From the IMG/VR virus record IMGVR_UViG_3300027974_001778, positions 1-64,000 of that record: DNA of 64,000 nt, one strand, 5' to 3'. Each line of letters begins with the position of its first letter. The stretch's first letter is position 1. Under the pieces are notes generated by a model. The model did not search any database. It was not told the origin of the DNA and saw only the letters and a list, made by a program, of their open reading frames with translations. This DNA comes from a virus. The position numbers and the translations under genes are program-made. Positions 24,669 through 40,202 of this stretch are shown here, in pieces.

Positions 24669-26420
24669 ATGGACGCTAGTTTAGAATCAAAGGCATTGTC
24701 TCTCTTGGAGGTTTATGAAGGAGGAAATAACTACCTTATTGAACTTAAAAGAAAGTCTCAAATAAATAGGAGGTTTTACCCTACAAGGAGTCAGGCTGAG
24801 TATATTATTAATAACCATAACAAACAACCAAAGGTTGCAAAAAAATGGGTAATACTTGACGCATATTTCGCACAGAAACTTGCTGACGATAAACTTATGA
24901 CCGAAATACCTGAAAAAATTTGGGTAGAAAAGTTATTGGCAGATAAAGAAAAAGCGTTTCACATTTGGGGTAAGATAACCGAATCGGAACAACTACATGA
25001 TTTTTGGTTGCCCAAAGCGGCAATCATAAAAGACAACACGGTTAAAAACGTTGTAATAAACTATGAAAAATATTCTCACCGTCCTCCTCTTGAACATCAA
25101 AAAGAATCTATTCAAAAATTGGTTGAAAATAAAAAATTCATACTTGCAGATGATATGGGTCTTGGAAAGACTACTTCTACTATTATAGCGGCATTAGAAT
25201 CAGGGTCCAAGAAAGTATTAATTATTTGTCCAGCAACTTTAAAAATTAACTGGAAAAGAGAGATTGAAAACTATTCAGATAAGGCAGTTTATATTGCTGA
25301 AGGTAAAAACTTTAGTACGGATGCTGACTTTGTAATAATAAATTATGATATTATAAAAAATTTCCATGATACAAAAAAGAAAGGTGAATCGCAAATTCTT
25401 GATGCCAATTTTGATTTGGTGGTCGTTGATGAAGCGCACTATATTAAAAACGCTACAGCCCAAAGAACAAAACTAATTAACGACCTTGTTAAGAAGGTGG
25501 ACCGACTTTGGTTATTGACGGGTACTCCGATGACCTCTCGACCAATTGATTACTTCAACTTATTAAGTTTGATTGAATCCCCTGTTGCGAAGAATTGGAT
25601 GGCGTATGCTATCAGATACTGTCAGGGATACCAATTCAACGTCGGAGGCAGAAAGGTGTGGAATGTTATGGGGGCGTCTAATCTTGAGGAATTAAGAGAC
25701 AGAACCGCAGGTCTTACATTAAGAAGACTTAAAGAAAACGTACTTGACCTTCCTGACAAAATAATCACACCAGTATATCTTAGATTAAAGTCTAAAATGT
25801 ATGAGGAGATTATGGGAGAATATTACGATTGGTATGACAAAAATCCAGAGGAATCAAAATCTCTTACAGTTCAATTCACCAAGTTAACAAAGATACGTCA
25901 GGTTATCGCAGATGAAAAAGTTTCACAGACAATAGAACTTGCAGAAAACATTGTTGAACAAGGGAAAAAAGTAATTATCTTCTGTAACTTTACAGATTCA
26001 CTTAATAAAATTTGCGAACATTTTGGTAAATCCGCAGTTAAAATAAACGGCTCAATGTCTAAACCTGAAAGACAACACAGTGTAGACAGTTTCCAAGAAA
26101 ACGATAAAATAAAAATACTTGTCGGTAATATAAAAGCCGCTGGGGTTGGTATAACTTTAACGGCAGCTGAAGCGGTTATTATGAACGACCTATCATTTTT
26201 ACCATCCGACCACGCCCAAGCAGAAGACCGAGCTTATAGATACGGTCAAAAAAACAATGTATTAGTTTATTACCCCATATTCGAAAACACAATCGAAGGA
26301 ATTATCTACGACATATTAAACAATAAAAAACAAGTGATTGCCACAGTTATGGGGGACAATCAAAATACGGCCGATGCTGCCGAAGAAATTTTGAAGAGAA
26401 TTAATGAAATGCGTCGTTAA
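24669..26420 (+). CDS. SNF2-type DEAD/DEAH helicase (UvsW-like role)
   Basis: A 583-residue superfamily 2 ATPase. Q-motif-like HRPPLEHQKESI (137-148), Walker A DDMGLGKTTST (161-171), motif Ia LIICPATLKINWKREI, Walker B DEAH (254-257), motif III LTGTPMTS (283-290), motif V GNIKAAGVGITLTAAE and motif VI QAEDRAYRYGQ (about 517-527) are all present; the last is the SNF2 signature. The N-terminal 135 residues are specific to the phage/small SNF2 group. Such proteins translocate on duplex DNA and remodel forks or branched DNA, the job UvsW does in T4. The sigma70-like promoter fits early expression with replication genes. Confidence 0.88.
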   Translation: MDASLESKALSLLEVYEGGNNYLIELKRKSQINRRFYPTRSQAEYIINNHNKQPKVAKKWVILDAYFAQKLADDKLMTEIPEKIWVEKLLADKEKAFHIWGKITESEQLHDFWLPKAAIIKDNTVKNVVINYEKYSHRPPLEHQKESIQKLVENKKFILADDMGLGKTTSTIIAALESGSKKVLIICPATLKINWKREIENYSDKAVYIAEGKNFSTDADFVIINYDIIKNFHDTKKKGESQILDANFDLVVVDEAHYIKNATAQRTKLINDLVKKVDRLWLLTGTPMTSRPIDYFNLLSLIESPVAKNWMAYAIRYCQGYQFNVGGRKVWNVMGASNLEELRDRTAGLTLRRLKENVLDLPDKIITPVYLRLKSKMYEEIMGEYYDWYDKNPEESKSLTVQFTKLTKIRQVIADEKVSQTIELAENIVEQGKKVIIFCNFTDSLNKICEHFGKSAVKINGSMSKPERQHSVDSFQENDKIKILVGNIKAAGVGITLTAAEAVIMNDLSFLPSDHAQAEDRAYRYGQKNNVLVYYPIFENTIEGIIYDILNNKKQVIATVMGDNQNTADAAEEILKRINEMRR

Positions 26421-26433
26421 AGAAAATCTGGAT

Positions 26434-26441
26434 TATTTATA
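26434..26441 (+). promoter_or_regulatory. TATTTATA late-promoter candidate for the SOD-fusion gene
   Basis: Plus-strand TATTTATA in the 42-nt gap after the helicase gene, 21 nt before ATG 26463. Confidence 0.55.
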
Positions 26442-26462
26442 TGAAATGGATAATCCAAAAAT

Positions 26463-28001
26463 ATGAAAAAAATAGAAGAGAAAATCCAACAACTCGAAAC
26501 ACAAATACTTGAAAACCACATCACAAAAGAAAAAGAGTTGTTGATTAACGAAATGAAAAAAATAGGAATAGAAAAATTACCCTATTCTTACTCAGCCCTG
26601 AAACAGTTTATTGACCCCGAGACAATGAACTTTCACTATAACAAACATTATAAGGGATATGTGGATAAATTGAATGACGCTTTAAATAAAAAGAAATACG
26701 GGGATTTAGAGTTAGAACAAATAATCAAAACAATAAGTCGTTTTGATAAGACAATAAGAAACAACGCAGGAGGAGCATTTAACCACGCATTGTTTTGGAA
26801 TATGTTAACACCAACTCCAAAGAAATTAGAAGGAGAATTACTTAAAAAAATCACAAAACAATTCGGAAGTTTCACTGCGTTCAAGAAACAATTTGATACT
26901 GTTGCCAAAGATAGATTCGGTTCAGGGTGGGTATGGTTAGTCCTTACTGCCAAGAACACATTAAAGATTATGTCGACTCCAAATCAAGACAATCCTTTAA
27001 TGAATGTGATTGAAGGTGGTGGGTTTCCAATATTAGGATTAGACTTATGGGAACACGCTTATTACTTAAAGTATAGAAACAAGAGAGACGAATATATTGT
27101 TAACTTTTGGAAAGTTGTAAATTGGGAATTTGTTTCCAAGTTATACGAAATGAAAACGGAAACTAAATTAGTAGAATCCGTTAAGTTAGAGAAGTTGATT
27201 ACAGAATCTAAAGAGGCGAAGTTCTGTGACGCCAAGGAAGTTCAATTCTACAGAGAACTTATTAATAATTCAAACATTAAGAGAATATACCAAGACGGAG
27301 TAACTAATGCTTTAAAAGAAGTGTTTAGTCAATTTTGGGTTGATAGTACAAATAAAGAAATGTCAGGGTTTTATGGATTAGAGTCTAAAGAAGGAAGGTC
27401 TATTTTAAATAACCTAAACACAAACTTCAACACGTTTTGTTTATTAACCAAAGCAATTAATACTCAAATTGAAAAAATAGGTAGACCTGAAAAGAAATTT
27501 AATTTTTCTAAAAAAGAAAATAGAACCATTAAAGAAATTAACAGATTAATGAATGCGTTGTATCATTTCAAAACAGAAATATTCACAAAAAACAACGAGG
27601 AGTTTATTAACATAATTAAAGTGTTAAAAAAATTGTGGGATAGAGGACAAAAATCTGAAGATGATGTTTTAATTAAAATTGAAAAATATTTTGGGGATTC
27701 CGCAAAACTTGAAAAGACTGGAGGACATGGTCAAAAAACCGATGCTCTCCTTGGTGTTGATTTAACAATTACTTTAAATGAAACAAAATATACCGCTCAG
27801 GTTAAACCATTTTCAAGAATAATAAAAGAAGATGGGAAAATTACTGTAAAAGATACAGGAAATGTTAAACCGTACGACGTTGATTGGTTGATATTTATTA
27901 ATACAAAATCAAACGAAATTTTGATTTTTGAAAACAACCCGATTAAAAATCATAATCAATATGTGTTTAATGAGAGTTCATTAATTCATAAAATAGAATA
28001 G
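26463..28001 (+). CDS. Manganese-type superoxide dismutase fused to a PD-(D/E)xK-like domain
   Basis: Residues about 37-232 are a complete Fe/Mn superoxide dismutase. Metal ligands are H58 (FHYNKHYKGYV), H108 (GGAFNHALFW), D194 and H198 (GLDLWEHAYY); gateway Tyr is Y66. Gly at 103-104 and Q175 in NQDNPLM match the Mn-type outer-sphere pattern. A basic helical N-terminus (1-36) precedes it. Residues about 250-512 are extra: a helical part, then GGHGQKTDALLGVDLTI and YTAQVKPF (D433, Q446, K448), which look like the D...(E/Q)xK core of PD-(D/E)xK nucleases. The linker contains LITE/S (245-249), resembling a T4 prohead-protease site. It has a late-type motif and sits between helicase and neck genes. 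SOD is sure; the nuclease call is tentative. Confidence 0.88.
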   Translation: MKKIEEKIQQLETQILENHITKEKELLINEMKKIGIEKLPYSYSALKQFIDPETMNFHYNKHYKGYVDKLNDALNKKKYGDLELEQIIKTISRFDKTIRNNAGGAFNHALFWNMLTPTPKKLEGELLKKITKQFGSFTAFKKQFDTVAKDRFGSGWVWLVLTAKNTLKIMSTPNQDNPLMNVIEGGGFPILGLDLWEHAYYLKYRNKRDEYIVNFWKVVNWEFVSKLYEMKTETKLVESVKLEKLITESKEAKFCDAKEVQFYRELINNSNIKRIYQDGVTNALKEVFSQFWVDSTNKEMSGFYGLESKEGRSILNNLNTNFNTFCLLTKAINTQIEKIGRPEKKFNFSKKENRTIKEINRLMNALYHFKTEIFTKNNEEFINIIKVLKKLWDRGQKSEDDVLIKIEKYFGDSAKLEKTGGHGQKTDALLGVDLTITLNETKYTAQVKPFSRIIKEDGKITVKDTGNVKPYDVDWLIFINTKSNEILIFENNPIKNHNQYVFNESSLIHKIE

Positions 28002-28007
28002 TTAAGA

Positions 28008-28015
28008 TATTTATT
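28008..28015 (+). promoter_or_regulatory. TATTTATT late-promoter candidate for the neck gene
   Basis: Plus-strand TATTTATT, 3 nt before ATG 28019, in the 17-nt gap after the SOD-fusion stop codon. Confidence 0.55.
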
Positions 28016-28018
28016 GAC

Positions 28019-29143
28019 ATGGCAGTATTACCAGAACCAGAAAGAAGTAGGATATATACGAGAATCAAACATCAGTTAGGTGCACCACTAAGAAGTGTTG
28101 AACTTGAAGATGAGATGATGGATTCGTTAATGGAATTAGCAATTGGGGATTACGAAGAGTATATCCTACAATGGTTAATTGATTCTCAATGGGTTAACTT
28201 AGTTAACTTGAATATGAATGAAAGGTCTGTTGCAAGAGCGTTAGTTACAAGAACTATGGATTTTGAACAACAGTTTAGTTACGCATATTCTAAAATTGTA
28301 GGTCTTCAAACTGAAGGTCCTTGGGTTTTAAAGAAAGATTATTTCGTTCTTGAGAAGAATGTTCAAACATATGAAATTCCTGCGGGTAGAGAAGTTAATG
28401 AACTATTATGGTTTAGTGACCAACCTTGGACTGCGTTTGGAATTGGTGGAATGGCTGGTGGTTTTGGTGGTATCGGATTAGGTGCCGACCAAGCTGGATT
28501 TGCTCAAATGGGTAATCAAGGTTCTTATTTTATGATGTCAGGTTTTGATTATTTAATCAGAATGCAAGAAGCCAATATTCTTAATAGAATTTTAGGTGGT
28601 TCGATGACTTATAGAATTACAGGTTTACCTGATGGTAAAAAGTTAATTCACTTAATGAATACCCCTGGTGGTAAATTTAATTGGTCAAGTTATAGTCAAT
28701 ACGTTGGTAAAGCCGTATGGTATTGGTATTATGATGTTGAACCCGATAGTAGAGCCGATTGTCTCAAAAACAATCCTGATATTATTAAATTACCGACAGA
28801 TGTTCCAATCGAATCTCTTAGTTGGGAGGACTTAAACGTTCCTGGTCAACAATGGGTGAGAAGATGGTTTACTGCCTATTGTAAAGAAACTTTGGCAAGA
28901 GTTAGAGGTAAGTATAGTGGTAACTTAAAAACACCTGATTCTGAAATCGTAATGGATTATCAGAGTTTACTTACTGAGGCTAAAGACGAAAAGACCAAAT
29001 TAATAGATGAACTAACAGGAGCTGAAGGATGGTTGACAAGAATGAGACCCGATAAAGTAATGGAACGAGAAGCATTAATTGCAGAAAACTTGAACAAACA
29101 AATGAAGTTCAGAGCAATGCCTCGTCAAATATATGTAATTTAA
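28019..29143 (+). CDS. Neck protein, gp13-like candidate
   Basis: A 374-residue virion protein. The C-terminal third (QQWVRRWFTAYCKETLARVR, then GNLKTPDSEIVMDYQSLLTE and the acidic helix to WLTRM) matches the helical end of T4-type neck proteins related to gp13, where a W-x-YC/YA-LA-x2-RGK-like helix is followed by a long EAxxEKxxLxxEL helix. The middle has a Gly-rich patch (GGMAGGFGGIGLGADQ) and beta strands. A dedicated TATTTATT motif lies 3 nt before the ATG, so expression should be late. The T4 equivalence rests on this pattern only. Confidence 0.55.
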   Translation: MAVLPEPERSRIYTRIKHQLGAPLRSVELEDEMMDSLMELAIGDYEEYILQWLIDSQWVNLVNLNMNERSVARALVTRTMDFEQQFSYAYSKIVGLQTEGPWVLKKDYFVLEKNVQTYEIPAGREVNELLWFSDQPWTAFGIGGMAGGFGGIGLGADQAGFAQMGNQGSYFMMSGFDYLIRMQEANILNRILGGSMTYRITGLPDGKKLIHLMNTPGGKFNWSSYSQYVGKAVWYWYYDVEPDSRADCLKNNPDIIKLPTDVPIESLSWEDLNVPGQQWVRRWFTAYCKETLARVRGKYSGNLKTPDSEIVMDYQSLLTEAKDEKTKLIDELTGAEGWLTRMRPDKVMEREALIAENLNKQMKFRAMPRQIYVI

Positions 29144-29147
29144 TTTT

Positions 29148-29483
29148 ATGGCAATACTAAAAACAATACCATCAAGAAAAGTAATCAATGGGTTTGTCGT
29201 AGACACCTCAGAAATTTCTATAGTATCTGAAAAAGATTATACAACAAACGGAGAGTCTTGTATTGTAATTAAAGATGTTTCTGAATCTACAGTTATTTTA
29301 AATTCTAAAACAACAGACCATATTGTGGTTAAATCAATGACAAGACTTACAATCAAACCAGACATCGGTAAAATCGATGAAGACTATGATGAAATAGTTG
29401 CTGATAAGTATGCTTGTATTGAATTTAGATTTATGAGTGGAAATTGGTATATCCTATCTTCAGACGGTTTGAAGCAATCCTAA
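29148..29483 (+). CDS. Unknown small beta-rich protein
   Basis: Not recognised. The 111 residues alternate beta strands (CIVIKDVSESTVILNS, DHIVVKSMTRLTIKP, ACIEFRFMSGNWYILSSDG) with few helices, similar in style to decoration or small tail-associated beta proteins. It follows the neck-type gene by 4 nt and is probably co-transcribed. Its last 24 nt overlap the end of the DNA polymerase gene on the other strand. Confidence 0.7.
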   Translation: MAILKTIPSRKVINGFVVDTSEISIVSEKDYTTNGESCIVIKDVSESTVILNSKTTDHIVVKSMTRLTIKPDIGKIDEDYDEIVADKYACIEFRFMSGNWYILSSDGLKQS

Positions 29484-37373: not shown

Positions 37374-38420
37374 TTAACAACCTGATGGGTCGACACCTGT
37401 AATCTCACCTGAACCACCTGTAACTAGATATACCGCAGTTCCATTTGAATAATAACCATTTATAACTGGTGTTGATAAACCTGAGTTGTAGTATAAGAAT
37501 TCTCCAACATTTGGACCAATTCCTCCTGATACAGTTCCGTAGATTGTGTTAGGTGCTCCACTGAAATCAATACAAGCTAAGTTTGCTGTACTACCTGTAC
37601 CTAAACTATATTGATAATAAGTTCTTGTTGGTGTGGGCGATGGTGTATGTGTTGGAGTTTGTGTATTTGTAGGTGTATTTGTTGGAGTAGGTGTTAAAGT
37701 AGGACAAAGAGTGTAAGAAAATGCAACTACATCACCATCAGATTGAATTTCAACTACGTAGTTGTTATATTCCAAATATCCTGCTCCTGCAGGAGATGAC
37801 CCGTCGATATTAAGACTGAAATTGTTTACTAAATCAAAACTAGAATTATTACCATACACATTGATTAATGAACCTCCAATATTTCCACAAGCATTTAAAC
37901 TAGTCGAACCAGAATAAACGCTACTAAATAATATACGAGACAATGTTGGTGTTGGAGTTGATGTTGATGATGGTGTATCTGTTGGTGTTTGACTTGGTGT
38001 AATACTTGGAGTTGGAGTTGGAGTTACAGCGGCAGTGCCTGTATTAGTTGGAGTCGGAGTCACAGCAGCAGTTCCTGTTGGTGTATTTGTAGGAGTTGAT
38101 GTATTAGTTGGTGTTTGAGTATTAGTTGGAGTCGGAGTCACAGCAGCAGTTCCTGTTGGAGTATTACTTGGAGTAACACTTGGAGTTGGTGTTGGAGTCG
38201 CGGTTTCACTAATTGGCGGGAAAGCTCCTTGATTAATCAAAGAAACTGAACTAGTATAAACAGGAGAAATTGTATATGTCCCGTTAATTACCCAAATATT
38301 CTTTGTTTGATTTGGATTTAATTCAACTTGATACTCCCAAAGAGAGTCATCACATCTTCTATAATTAAAGTTCACAATTGTGGAACCTGTATTTGTTAAG
38401 GTATATTTGCTACATGCCAT
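37374..38420 (-). CDS. Thr/Pro-linker virion protein with two repeated beta domains
   Basis: 348 residues as beads on a string: an N-terminal domain (1-70) starting ACSKYTLTNTGSTIVNFNYR, a TPTNTPT-type linker (about 73-160), a small domain (163-240), a second short linker (about 240-266) and a last domain (267-348) ending GEITGVDPSGC. The two small domains share a plan: one Cys near the start, an IYG/NVYG turn, a Tyr-rich middle with the NGYYSNG or YLEYNNY type, and a C-terminal Cys. Such modules are common in uncharacterised phage fibre or adhesin proteins. No signal peptide is seen. It has a TATTTATT motif 18 nt upstream and a strong terminator. Confidence 0.7.
   Translation of the reverse strand: MACSKYTLTNTGSTIVNFNYRRCDDSLWEYQVELNPNQTKNIWVINGTYTISPVYTSSVSLINQGAFPPISETATPTPTPSVTPSNTPTGTAAVTPTPTNTQTPTNTSTPTNTPTGTAAVTPTPTNTGTAAVTPTPTPSITPSQTPTDTPSSTSTPTPTLSRILFSSVYSGSTSLNACGNIGGSLINVYGNNSSFDLVNNFSLNIDGSSPAGAGYLEYNNYVVEIQSDGDVVAFSYTLCPTLTPTPTNTPTNTQTPTHTPSPTPTRTYYQYSLGTGSTANLACIDFSGAPNTIYGTVSGGIGPNVGEFLYYNSGLSTPVINGYYSNGTAVYLVTGGSGEITGVDPSGC
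37624..38206 (-). repeat. Thr-Pro linker repeats in the 348-residue protein
   Basis: Two blocks (37943-38206 and 37624-37706) code for degenerate TPT/NTPT/GTAAVTPTPTNT units. The DNA is correspondingly repetitive, with long near-identical stretches such as the GTAAVTPTPTNT-coding segment present more than once. Confidence 0.85.
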
Positions 38421-38438
38421 CTTAAATGTTATTTATCT

Positions 38439-38446
38439 AATAAATA
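38439..38446 (-). promoter_or_regulatory. TATTTATT late-promoter candidate
   Basis: Minus-strand TATTTATT, 18 nt before ATG 38420, in the 69-nt gap between two Thr/Pro-rich genes. Confidence 0.55.
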
Positions 38447-38489
38447 CTACGATTTTCTCTAATTTTATAAAGTAATCTTATTTTATTTC

Positions 38490-39599
38490 TTAACAAGGAT
38501 TTATGTATGTCACAAATCCATCTCCACTTACAATTATATAAGTACTAACACAAGTAACATCTGTGTCGCCACCAAGAACTGTGAAGCTATAATCAAACCC
38601 ACTACAATCTTTACCAACAAAAAGAGTGTCAGTAGTTCCGCCATAAAATGCATATCTTTTACATAAAGGACCTGACGGTGTTTGTGTTTGAGTTGGAGTG
38701 TTAGTTGAAGTTTGAGTGTTGGTTGGAGTTTGAGTATTGGTTGGAGTTTGAGTATTTGTTGAAGTTTGTGTGTTGGTTGGAGTTTGAGTATTAGTCGGAG
38801 TGTTAGTTGGCGTTTCAGTATTGGTTGGAGTGTTAGTTGGCGTTGATGTATTAGTTGGAGTTGGAGTACTTGTTGGTAATAAAGAACAAAGGGTGAAATA
38901 TCCAACTGTATTACCAGACAAATCAAGTTCAACCAAAACTCCTAAATAATTATAATATCCTGCAATATTTCCAATGATTCCGCCATTTGACGTATTAAAG
39001 AAATAACTATTTTGGTCAAAAATTTGTTCTACACCATATATAGAGGTGCTATCTGAACCGTTACACGCATCGTATGGACTTGTTCCTCCACTTAAACAAC
39101 TAAATTCATATAATATAACTCCTGAAGGAGTTACTGTTGGAGTTGCGGTTTGAGTTGGAGTCTGTGTTTGATTTGGAGTATTAGTTGGCGTTTCTGTATT
39201 AGTAGGAGTTAAGGTATTAGTAGGTGTTACTGTTGGTGTTTGTGTACTAGTTGTGGTGTTTGTAGGAGTTGTACTTGGAGTATTAGTTGGAGTTCCTGTA
39301 TTAGTTGGAGTATTAGTTGGAGTCACCGTTGGAGTTGATGTTACCGTTGGTGTTGGAGAAGTTTCAGTTGGTGTTGGTGTTGGTGTTGGTGTTGGTCCTA
39401 ATATCGATATACTATATGTGTAAGCATATAATGGAACGTAACAATTATATGTTCCGTAATAATAATCTGCAACATAACTAAATGGAAAAACTTGATTACC
39501 TAAGTCAACGGAAGTCCCTCCTGTTTGAGGAAGAAACGTAACTTCGGTTGTTAATCCGCTTAAACTTACACTTGAAATTAATACACCACAATCTGCCAT
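38490..39599 (-). CDS. Thr/Pro-linker virion protein with repeated beta domains
   Basis: A 369-residue paralogue in design to the downstream 348-residue protein: an N-terminal beta domain (1-68), a linker of TPT/NTPT units (about 70-158), a Cys-containing domain (about 160-240: FSCLSGGTSPYDACNGSDS ... YFTLCS), a second linker rich in TPTNTQT (about 243-312) and a C-terminal Cys domain (KRYAFYGGTTDTLFVGKDC to INPC). The Thr/Pro segments should be extended and protease-resistant if glycosylated. A TATTTATT motif lies 3 nt before the ATG. Probably a fibre or surface decoration protein; no enzymatic motif. Confidence 0.7.
   Translation of the reverse strand: MADCGVLISSVSLSGLTTEVTFLPQTGGTSVDLGNQVFPFSYVADYYYGTYNCYVPLYAYTYSISILGPTPTPTPTPTETSPTPTVTSTPTVTPTNTPTNTGTPTNTPSTTPTNTTTSTQTPTVTPTNTLTPTNTETPTNTPNQTQTPTQTATPTVTPSGVILYEFSCLSGGTSPYDACNGSDSTSIYGVEQIFDQNSYFFNTSNGGIIGNIAGYYNYLGVLVELDLSGNTVGYFTLCSLLPTSTPTPTNTSTPTNTPTNTETPTNTPTNTQTPTNTQTSTNTQTPTNTQTPTNTQTSTNTPTQTQTPSGPLCKRYAFYGGTTDTLFVGKDCSGFDYSFTVLGGDTDVTCVSTYIIVSGDGFVTYINPC
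38676..39393 (-). repeat. Thr-Pro linker repeats in the 369-residue protein
   Basis: Blocks 39127-39393 and 38676-38878 encode TPTNT(P/Q)T-like units. Units of about 18-21 nt recur almost unchanged, so replication slippage or recombination between blocks is likely. Confidence 0.85.
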
Positions 39600-39602
39600 G
39601 TT

Positions 39603-39610
39603 AATAAATA
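39603..39610 (-). promoter_or_regulatory. TATTTATT late-promoter candidate
   Basis: Minus-strand TATTTATT, 3 nt before ATG 39599, in the 33-nt gap between Thr/Pro-rich genes. Confidence 0.55.
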
Positions 39611-39632
39611 CTCAAAAATTTTATTTTATCTT

Positions 39633-40202
39633 TTAACATACCCCAACATTAATAATTTGATTACCGCTAAGTTGAATAAACTTAGCTCCGTTTGAGATTG
39701 TAAAATTGGCATTAATTGGAGGGATTGTTAAAGATTGGTTACCATATACATAATCACCCACTTCTAAATTTTCAAAAAGTTTTGGAATGTAGATTGTTAC
39801 GTTTGCTGGATTTGCAATCATATTAACAGATTGACAGACATTTTGATACCAACCACCTGTTCTTAAATTATACATATAAACTGTTGTTGGTGTAACCGTT
39901 GGTGTTGTTGTAGGTGTTGGAGTTGGAGAAGTTGAGGTTGGAGTCGGTGTTACAGAACTTTGAGTTGGTGTTGACGTAATGGTTGGAGTCGGTGTTGTTG
40001 AAGGACATAAGCCCACTAAAGATATTGTAAGAGGAGCTCCATAACTTTCAACAATTAAATCCTTAGCACAAACATATTGTACTTCTAACGGGTTAATTGG
40101 TGAAACACTAATTATATCCGTACAACCAGTCCATCTATAATATCCTTCTTCGACATTATTGTAGTTGGTTATAATAAAATAGTTACAGTCGGTTGTATAC
40201 AT
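39633..40202 (-). CDS. Thr/Pro-linker virion protein, short form
   Basis: 189 residues: N-terminal Cys-rich beta domain (1-66, starting YTTDCNYFIITNYNNVEEGY), a single TPT linker (about 67-107) and a C-terminal beta domain (108-189, MYNLRTGGWYQNVCQS to INVGVC) ending in Cys like its neighbours. It starts 1 nt after the stop of the Gly-X-Y fibre gene, so the two are coupled and their products may interact or be made in equal amounts. No own promoter motif is visible. Function is inferred only from the shared architecture. Confidence 0.68.
   Translation of the reverse strand: MYTTDCNYFIITNYNNVEEGYYRWTGCTDIISVSPINPLEVQYVCAKDLIVESYGAPLTISLVGLCPSTTPTPTITSTPTQSSVTPTPTSTSPTPTPTTTPTVTPTTVYMYNLRTGGWYQNVCQSVNMIANPANVTIYIPKLFENLEVGDYVYGNQSLTIPPINANFTISNGAKFIQLSGNQIINVGVC
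39880..40008 (-). repeat. Thr-Pro linker repeat in the 189-residue protein
   Basis: Codes for about 40 residues of TPTPT/STSPTPTPTT type linking two beta domains. Confidence 0.8.

Follow-up and report, generated by a model that had tools for sequence, protein, structure and literature searches.

The locus considered here occupies positions 26463-28001 (+ strand) of a 64,000-nucleotide stretch of viral DNA (termed here the window), which belongs to a 127,475-base virus record. By open reading frame (ORF) call and translation, a single ORF with an ATG start encodes a 512-residue protein in which a superoxide dismutase (SOD) domain is joined to a nuclease-type domain; the reverse strand, translated in one frame, contains many stops. 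Upstream lies a gene for a SNF2-type DNA helicase (24669-26420, +), which is assigned by Pfam and PHROGs matches and by an order common to relatives of the phage. Downstream lie a gene for a neck (head-tail adaptor) protein (28019-29143, +; phrog_211, 1e-9), which has a TATTTAT motif of its own at 28008-28014, and a small gene (29148-29483, +; 111 residues), which is conserved in synteny and matches no Pfam or PHROGs family. The phage is T4-like: it encodes a tail sheath, a tube, a neck protein, a Gp23 capsid protein and an S77-type prohead protease. It is probably large, because the records of its near relatives measure 317 to 326 kb. Its likely host is a member of the Bacteroidota, as is suggested by the scarcity of Shine-Dalgarno-like cores (of the window's 51 gene starts one has such a core, against 1.2 expected by shuffling) together with the titles of the 80 best-matching bacterial SODs, 69 of which are from Bacteroidota. 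Scarce Shine-Dalgarno cores are known for Bacteroidota and their phages.

The fusion recurs in other phages, a point that the first-pass annotation of this DNA had proposed to check: 129 distinct fused sequences (some ending at contig ends) were collected from viral contigs and aligned, including 34 representatives sharing less than 75% identity. Among 108 fusion loci, which correspond to 61 distinct proteins (contigs recur among them and the window's copy is counted in), the length is exactly 512 residues in 102 and 517 in five, and the remaining one is truncated by a contig end. Within the reach of the respective contigs, all 65 distinct loci show the gene order helicase, fusion, neck protein, 111-residue protein, DNA polymerase. 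An assembly error joining two genes, which had been raised as a concern, was checked and is ruled out by the 129 distinct fusions, by this recurrent length and by the shared gene order. The counts of family members, and of those members that lack an SOD, are lower bounds from a biased sample.

A TATTTAT motif at 26434-26440 (+), which may serve as the fusion gene's late promoter, is present in all 65 distinct upstream regions, and the motif recurs between the fusion and neck genes at 64 of the 65 distinct loci. Throughout the virus record it occurs within 60 bases upstream of 36 of the 135 ORFs, whereas about 3 of its 90 sites would be expected there from space alone; the mirrored sequence TATAAAT, which has the same composition (93 sites), precedes 8 ORFs. 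The motif lies before the genes for tail sheath, tube, neck and prohead protease, and before the gene that precedes the capsid protein; the capsid-protein gene itself has none within 60 bases upstream. TATTTAT is accordingly read as a putative late promoter of this phage group. Overlapping it is an inverted repeat (26429-26457, +), which was analyzed using 19 of the 27 sequences of one alignment (A1), 18 of the 19 being distinct. Pairing holds for 92.4% of cells in this set, against at most 46.5% when the arms are slid, and in 11 cells both partners of the pair have changed, a number that none of 500 shuffles reached (mean 4.2); the number of doubly changed pairs and the number of pair types do not exceed those of shuffles. 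The second arm is missing at some loci (L078, L082, L090, L097 and L167). The repeat is a candidate RNA hairpin or DNA operator.

Residues 36-230 (26568-27152, +) constitute, judged by sequence, a complete Mn-type SOD, as the first-pass annotation had maintained. Pfam places Sod_Fe_N at residues 36-115 (6.5e-22) and Sod_Fe_C at residues 123-226 (4.5e-40), the higher of the two scores being 136.3 bits against a cut-off of 20.9 and the lower 78.3 bits against one of 27, and residues 38-230 match solved Mn enzymes over the whole domain (best 6gsc, 6.7e-59). H58, H108, D194 and H198, which are taken from E. coli numbering to be the four metal ligands (three His and one Asp), never vary in the 129 fused sequences, gaps in 1 to 4 rows aside. 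The second-shell residues Gln at 175 and Gly at 192 are also present; these are presumed to mark a preference for Mn. In SOD scans limited to the best 80 matches, bacterial SODs extend at most 20 residues beyond the aligned domain, and the two SODs with annotation that were examined within the phage collection are both stand-alone. By comparison, 282 residues (231-512) follow the SOD domain of the fusion, or 267 when counted from the second of two linker sites described below; the first-pass annotation had given about 260. In a tree of SOD sequences, one branch, weakly supported (45), separates 32 phage SODs from 80 bacterial SODs. Five unannotated 'phage' records (OR850395, OR845917, OR851122, OR846937 and OR846594) encode SODs that resemble ordinary host genes; these may represent host contamination and were left out as phage SODs.

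The C-terminal part yields only chance-level matches to Pfam, PHROGs and PADLOC families and, at E-values up to 10, neither a match to PDB sequences nor a second copy in the phage's own record. Its nature is suggested instead by predicted structure. A model of the full-length protein is confident only past residue 250, with pLDDT for the SOD mostly under 50, and, because the SOD part is so poorly modelled, no domain arrangement was taken from it. A model of the module alone (residues 246-512; pLDDT 85.6, pTM 0.71) has a helical part first (residues 250-390; 27210-27632, +), followed by a strand-rich core (residues 391-512; 27633-27998, +). Foldseek comparison of this module to the PDB finds no match at E ≤ 0.001; its top matches are to the homing endonuclease I-Ssp6803I (E 1.9e-3), to Hjc of archaea and to SPARDA. 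Among the best 30 matches found by VIA-align, 28 are named nucleases, resolvases or SPARDA complexes--a result with which the first model agrees--and the other two are a TSEN complex and a protein that is presumably RecU, listed by a former name. The top match is to Hjc (Z 7.5; rmsd 3.6 Å over 99 residues), where a Z below 8 is by itself not decisive; the resemblance to the Holliday junction resolvases Hjc and RecU is one of fold, with no Pfam match. Within the core E399, D427, D433, Q446 and K448 are invariant in all 129 fused sequences. When the structural matches and the invariant E399, D427, D433 and Q446-x-K448 are taken together, the clear reading of the model is a PD-(D/E)xK fold whose QxK site is complete, in which particular residues among E399, D433, Q446 and K448 would be catalytic. 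Thus the structure prediction and structural search recommended earlier point to a nuclease fold rather than to an unrelated one; the suggestion of a nuclease-like domain is borne out as to predicted fold and residues, and D433, Q446 and K448 had been placed correctly.

Two further regions of the protein, a leader and a linker, contain short motifs of the form L/I-x-E. The leader (residues 1-30; 26463-26552, +) coincides largely with a helix predicted, with low to middling model confidence, for residues 2-33 and is a candidate capsid-targeting propeptide ending in I28-N29-E30. At residues 28-30 the pattern [LIVMF]-x-E is found in 29 of 31 representatives, and the next residue is Met in 28 of 29; the conservation of E30 may be structural, however, because the adjoining residues 31-43 are conserved as well. 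The linker between the SOD and the nuclease is variable except at a Cys at 255 and at two candidate prohead-protease sites. The first of these, L236-V237-E238 (27168-27176, +), conforms to [LIVM]-x-E in all 34 representatives and is followed by S, T or Q; the second, I246-T247-E248 (27198-27206, +), conforms in 32 of 34, the exceptions being L403 and L354. In 500 shuffles of each linker, no column exceeded 7 of 34. The earlier proposal of a targeting or packaging module therefore appears sound in idea and misplaced in location: the evidence puts the putative targeting function within the N-terminal 30 residues, and processing within the linker, rather than in the C-terminal domain.

The motif is that of a known head-maturation enzyme: L/I-X-E is the specificity of the T4 prohead protease gp21 and ten residues of T4 IPIII are enough to carry proteins into the head, as described in one source (PMC9026906). 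A second source (PMC7411985) gives 10-20 residues for T4 capsid-targeting sequences and describes the T4 internal proteins and Alt as cleaved by gp21 and as entering the host with the DNA. A prohead protease of the T4 family (PF03420, S77-type) and a Gp23 capsid protein were each found in five of five records, namely the phage's own and those of four relatives. In the phage's own record the protease gene occupies 81225-81941, outside the window. The N-terminal region of the capsid protein contains LINE/A in 8 records (11 loci), and the fusion leader reads LINE/M; the capsid motif is presumed to lie close to the position of the cut in T4 gp23. L/I-x-E is, however, a short motif and frequent by nature. 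Among ORFs of the record preceded by TATTTAT, 15 of 36 have such a motif near the N-terminus, as against 7.5 of 36 expected by shuffling; the comparison with the other ORFs (32 of 99) is not significant (p 0.32). In the same record, beyond the window, three ORFs preceded by TATTTAT (75490-77013, 92994-93329 and 125326-126279) have short leaders ending in L/I-x-E, one example lying beside the capsid gene; these are possible head-cargo proteins.

The nuclease module also occurs by itself. A search of phage records with the C-terminal part finds one weak match (E 0.02), in two identical deposits of a 735-kb uncultured phage (LR756501). This match is to a 290-residue ORF without an SOD, which scores 48.3 bits (E 3.7e-11 per million sequences) against a profile of the window's family, compared to 7.1 bits for the next best of 2,592 ORFs. 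Sod_Fe_C finds no match within LR756501, as against matches in 12 of 14 control genomes; a search for relatives of this copy in viral contigs returned 15 stretches, none of which was confirmed. The core shared by the copy and the fusions, G-x-[KR]-x-D-x3-G-x-D-x12-Q-x-K, was then back-translated into a DNA pattern, which when run over viral contigs finds at least 120 stretches (a narrower, GC-leaning signature finds none). At 119 new loci at least 115 ORFs fit the profile at E ≤ 1e-3; among the matches listed 100 have an SOD and 15 do not. Three of the latter (L376, L375 and L363) are cut at the end of the stretch and thus uninformative, leaving, among the matches listed, 12 intact SOD-less ORFs (L433, L456, L426, L402, L370, L417, L355, L398, L454, L423, L341 and L396), some of which are near-identical to each other. 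Eleven of these 12 retain the core complete and identically spaced, whereas that of L454 is shorter; this retention is partly circular, because the scan sought nearly that motif. The LR756501 copy, which was found without the motif, also has it. By eye, no clear leader site is seen in the more distant L433, L402 and L370.

Two SOD-less ORFs, L456 and L426, occupy the same locus as the fusion--that is, with the helicase upstream and the neck gene downstream--and retain the leader, a linker site and the nuclease in frame; in L456 a remnant of the residues preceding the SOD is still present. A tree was built from 41 modules (32 with and 9 without an SOD), leaving out two of the 34 fused representatives (under 230 residues), L417, L341 and L396 (near-copies) and L454 (a weak match). 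In this tree L456 pairs with the fused L387 and L426 with the fused L413, each pairing standing on a starred branch; the presence or absence of an SOD requires three changes, and a grouping of all SOD-bearers into one clade fails the AU test (p 6e-7). The simplest reading that fits three changes is that the SOD was gained once and then twice lost cleanly, without a change of locus; the deep part of the tree is unsure on account of long branches. The first-pass annotation had presented the protein as an SOD with an addition; the tree reverses this emphasis, such that the nuclease module is the constant element, to which the SOD relates as a cassette. Since the SOD seems to have been lost twice and the nuclease kept, the nuclease would be useful on its own.

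Related phages also have such a nuclease at another locus: L398 and L423, SOD-less relatives of 341-349 residues, are bordered on one side by a scaffold-like gene, itself adjacent to the Gp23 capsid gene, and on the other by homologues of genes found beside the prohead protease. This position within a cluster of head genes fits a head role for the nuclease. A pattern scan of bacterial genomes for the module returned 73 stretches, none of which was confirmed, and 0 of 395 Bacteroidota genomes were found to contain it, both results lacking a positive control and thus not establishing absence. (The module scan, like the SOD scans, reports a subset of matches--the best 80 of 126.)

The conserved L/I-x-E sites, the protease and the capsid LINE/A, the late-type motif, the SOD losses, the context of L398 and L423, the retained SOD ligands and nuclease residues and the purifying selection seen on both halves together suggest that the fusion is a late, head-packaged precursor that the prohead protease cuts into a leader, an SOD and a nuclease, the two enzymes being injected with the DNA; the probability of this reading is put at roughly 0.55. 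The leader (about 30 residues) would act like a T4 capsid-targeting sequence, by which the precursor would enter the prohead. During head maturation the phage's T4-type protease would cut after E30, E238 and E248, thereby freeing, within the capsid, an Mn-superoxide dismutase and a PD-(D/E)xK nuclease, both of which would then enter the host along with the phage DNA. There the SOD would remove superoxide before any phage gene is expressed, and the nuclease would act early in infection on nucleic acid, most likely host or competing DNA; the host chromosome, plasmids and rival phage DNA are guesses as to its target. Several observations weigh against this reading: the frequency of short L/I-x-E motifs, with no significant excess among the ORFs preceded by TATTTAT; the possibly structural conservation of E30; the two of 34 representatives that lack the second linker site; a leader longer than those of T4; the capsid-protein gene without TATTTAT; and the lack of a clear leader site in L433, L402 and L370. 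A bolder version of this proposal is plausible at somewhat less than even odds: that the protein is a two-enzyme capsid polyprotein, whose SOD and nuclease are split by the maturation protease, and injected together, whereby the phage would counter superoxide and attack DNA ahead of its own gene expression, that the SOD is a cassette which can be dropped and has protease sites at its borders, and that the nuclease belongs to a wider, unnamed family of phage nucleases carried as head cargo.

An unlikely alternative is that the protein remains uncut and works, in replication or in host takeover, as a two-domain enzyme within the infected cell, where the nuclease would process phage or host DNA (for example, branched intermediates, with the helicase) and the SOD would shield this work from superoxide. 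The helicase gene just upstream at all 65 distinct loci and the Holliday junction resolvases among the best structural matches would suit such a role, but it leaves unexplained two conserved L/I-x-E sites within an otherwise variable linker, the late-type motif and the clean loss of the SOD. (A search for T4 endonuclease VII in the four relatives of 317-326 kb found none; the control was equally empty and this result is hence uninformative.)

Considerably less probable is a role for the SOD mainly as a scaffold that dimerizes and so brings two nuclease domains together, with its chemistry secondary. In favour of this, Fe/Mn SODs of bacteria form dimers or tetramers, and nucleases of the Hjc/RecU type act as dimers; yet every SOD active-site residue checked is kept in the 129 sequences, and the nuclease occurs without an SOD. 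Rates of change likewise argue against it: the median dN/dS (26 sequences, 325 pairs) is 0.035 for the SOD, which is thus the slowest-changing region, 0.107 for the helical part, 0.133 for the leader and 0.155 for the nuclease part, values that are rough because synonymous sites are near saturation. By these values both halves of the fusion look to be under purifying selection. That the C-terminal domain instead binds DNA without cutting it, anchoring the SOD to a genome that is packaged or being replicated, would suit the nuclease part being the most variable of the four regions and the fact that a shared fold by itself proves no function, but is about as improbable, given the five invariant residues in all 129 fused sequences, the core kept (with the circularity and the shorter L454 noted above) in 11 of the 12 intact SOD-less ORFs among the matches listed, and its retention in the LR756501 copy.

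Under the preferred reading, that of a head-packaged precursor, the closest parallels are T4 IPI-IPIII and Alt, with which the fusion would share late expression and a place in the head, and shares an N-terminal leader that ends in L/I-x-E and a gp21-type protease in the same phage. It differs from them in that its leader is 30 residues long and in that two candidate sites in mid-protein would free two enzymes; moreover, no sequence relation to these proteins is shown. Archaeal Hjc and bacterial RecU share the PD-(D/E)xK fold over roughly residues 395-512 of the fusion, but at about 10-14% identity in the aligned part and without the helical N-terminal part and the SOD. The SPARDA nuclease domain, I-Ssp6803I and the restriction enzymes NhoI and DpnI fall into the same fold group in structural matches, but have other partners and no sequence similarity that could be found. 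Stand-alone phage SODs, such as that of Vibrio phage 2.275.O (189 residues; 31% identity), are likewise phage-encoded Fe/Mn enzymes, but lack the nuclease module.

The first-pass annotation knew of no described system with this pairing. The pairing is probably already in public data: the module's model matches, in BFVD, the predicted structure of UniProt A0A6J5L953 (E 9.6e-16; 30% identity over 260 columns), a 501-residue protein of an uncultured Caudovirales phage named only 'superoxide dismutase', which by name and length is probably the same fusion, the comparison being one of structure, name and length rather than of sequence. A second BFVD match is to A0A8D9CCA0, a marine phage protein of 1113 residues (E 7.3e-14). 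The literature search, whose scope mostly excluded subscription journals, found no description of an SOD-nuclease fusion or of a phage SOD as virion cargo. The parts are of known kinds--an Mn-SOD, a PD-(D/E)xK fold and a T4-style internal protein--but no description was found of two enzymes in one candidate head precursor. If the proposal is true, this would be, to the author's knowledge, the first antioxidant enzyme to travel as cargo in a phage head, and one of the rare cases of a capsid precursor giving rise to two enzymes. It makes testable whether superoxide counts in the first minutes of infection, and it brings to light a nuclease module of phages that can be recognized by its sequence signature.

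Two minor observations may be added. On the minus strand of the window (37374-40202), three adjacent genes match phrog_15511, a family whose function is not known, beside a tail-fibre-like gene. And the L454 ORF (from 7607, +; 504 residues) combines a putative zinc-ribbon N-terminus, which resembles an ORF of the window's own record (97880-98638), with its weak, shorter-looped match to the nuclease module; the phage that carries it also encodes an SOD-nuclease fusion.
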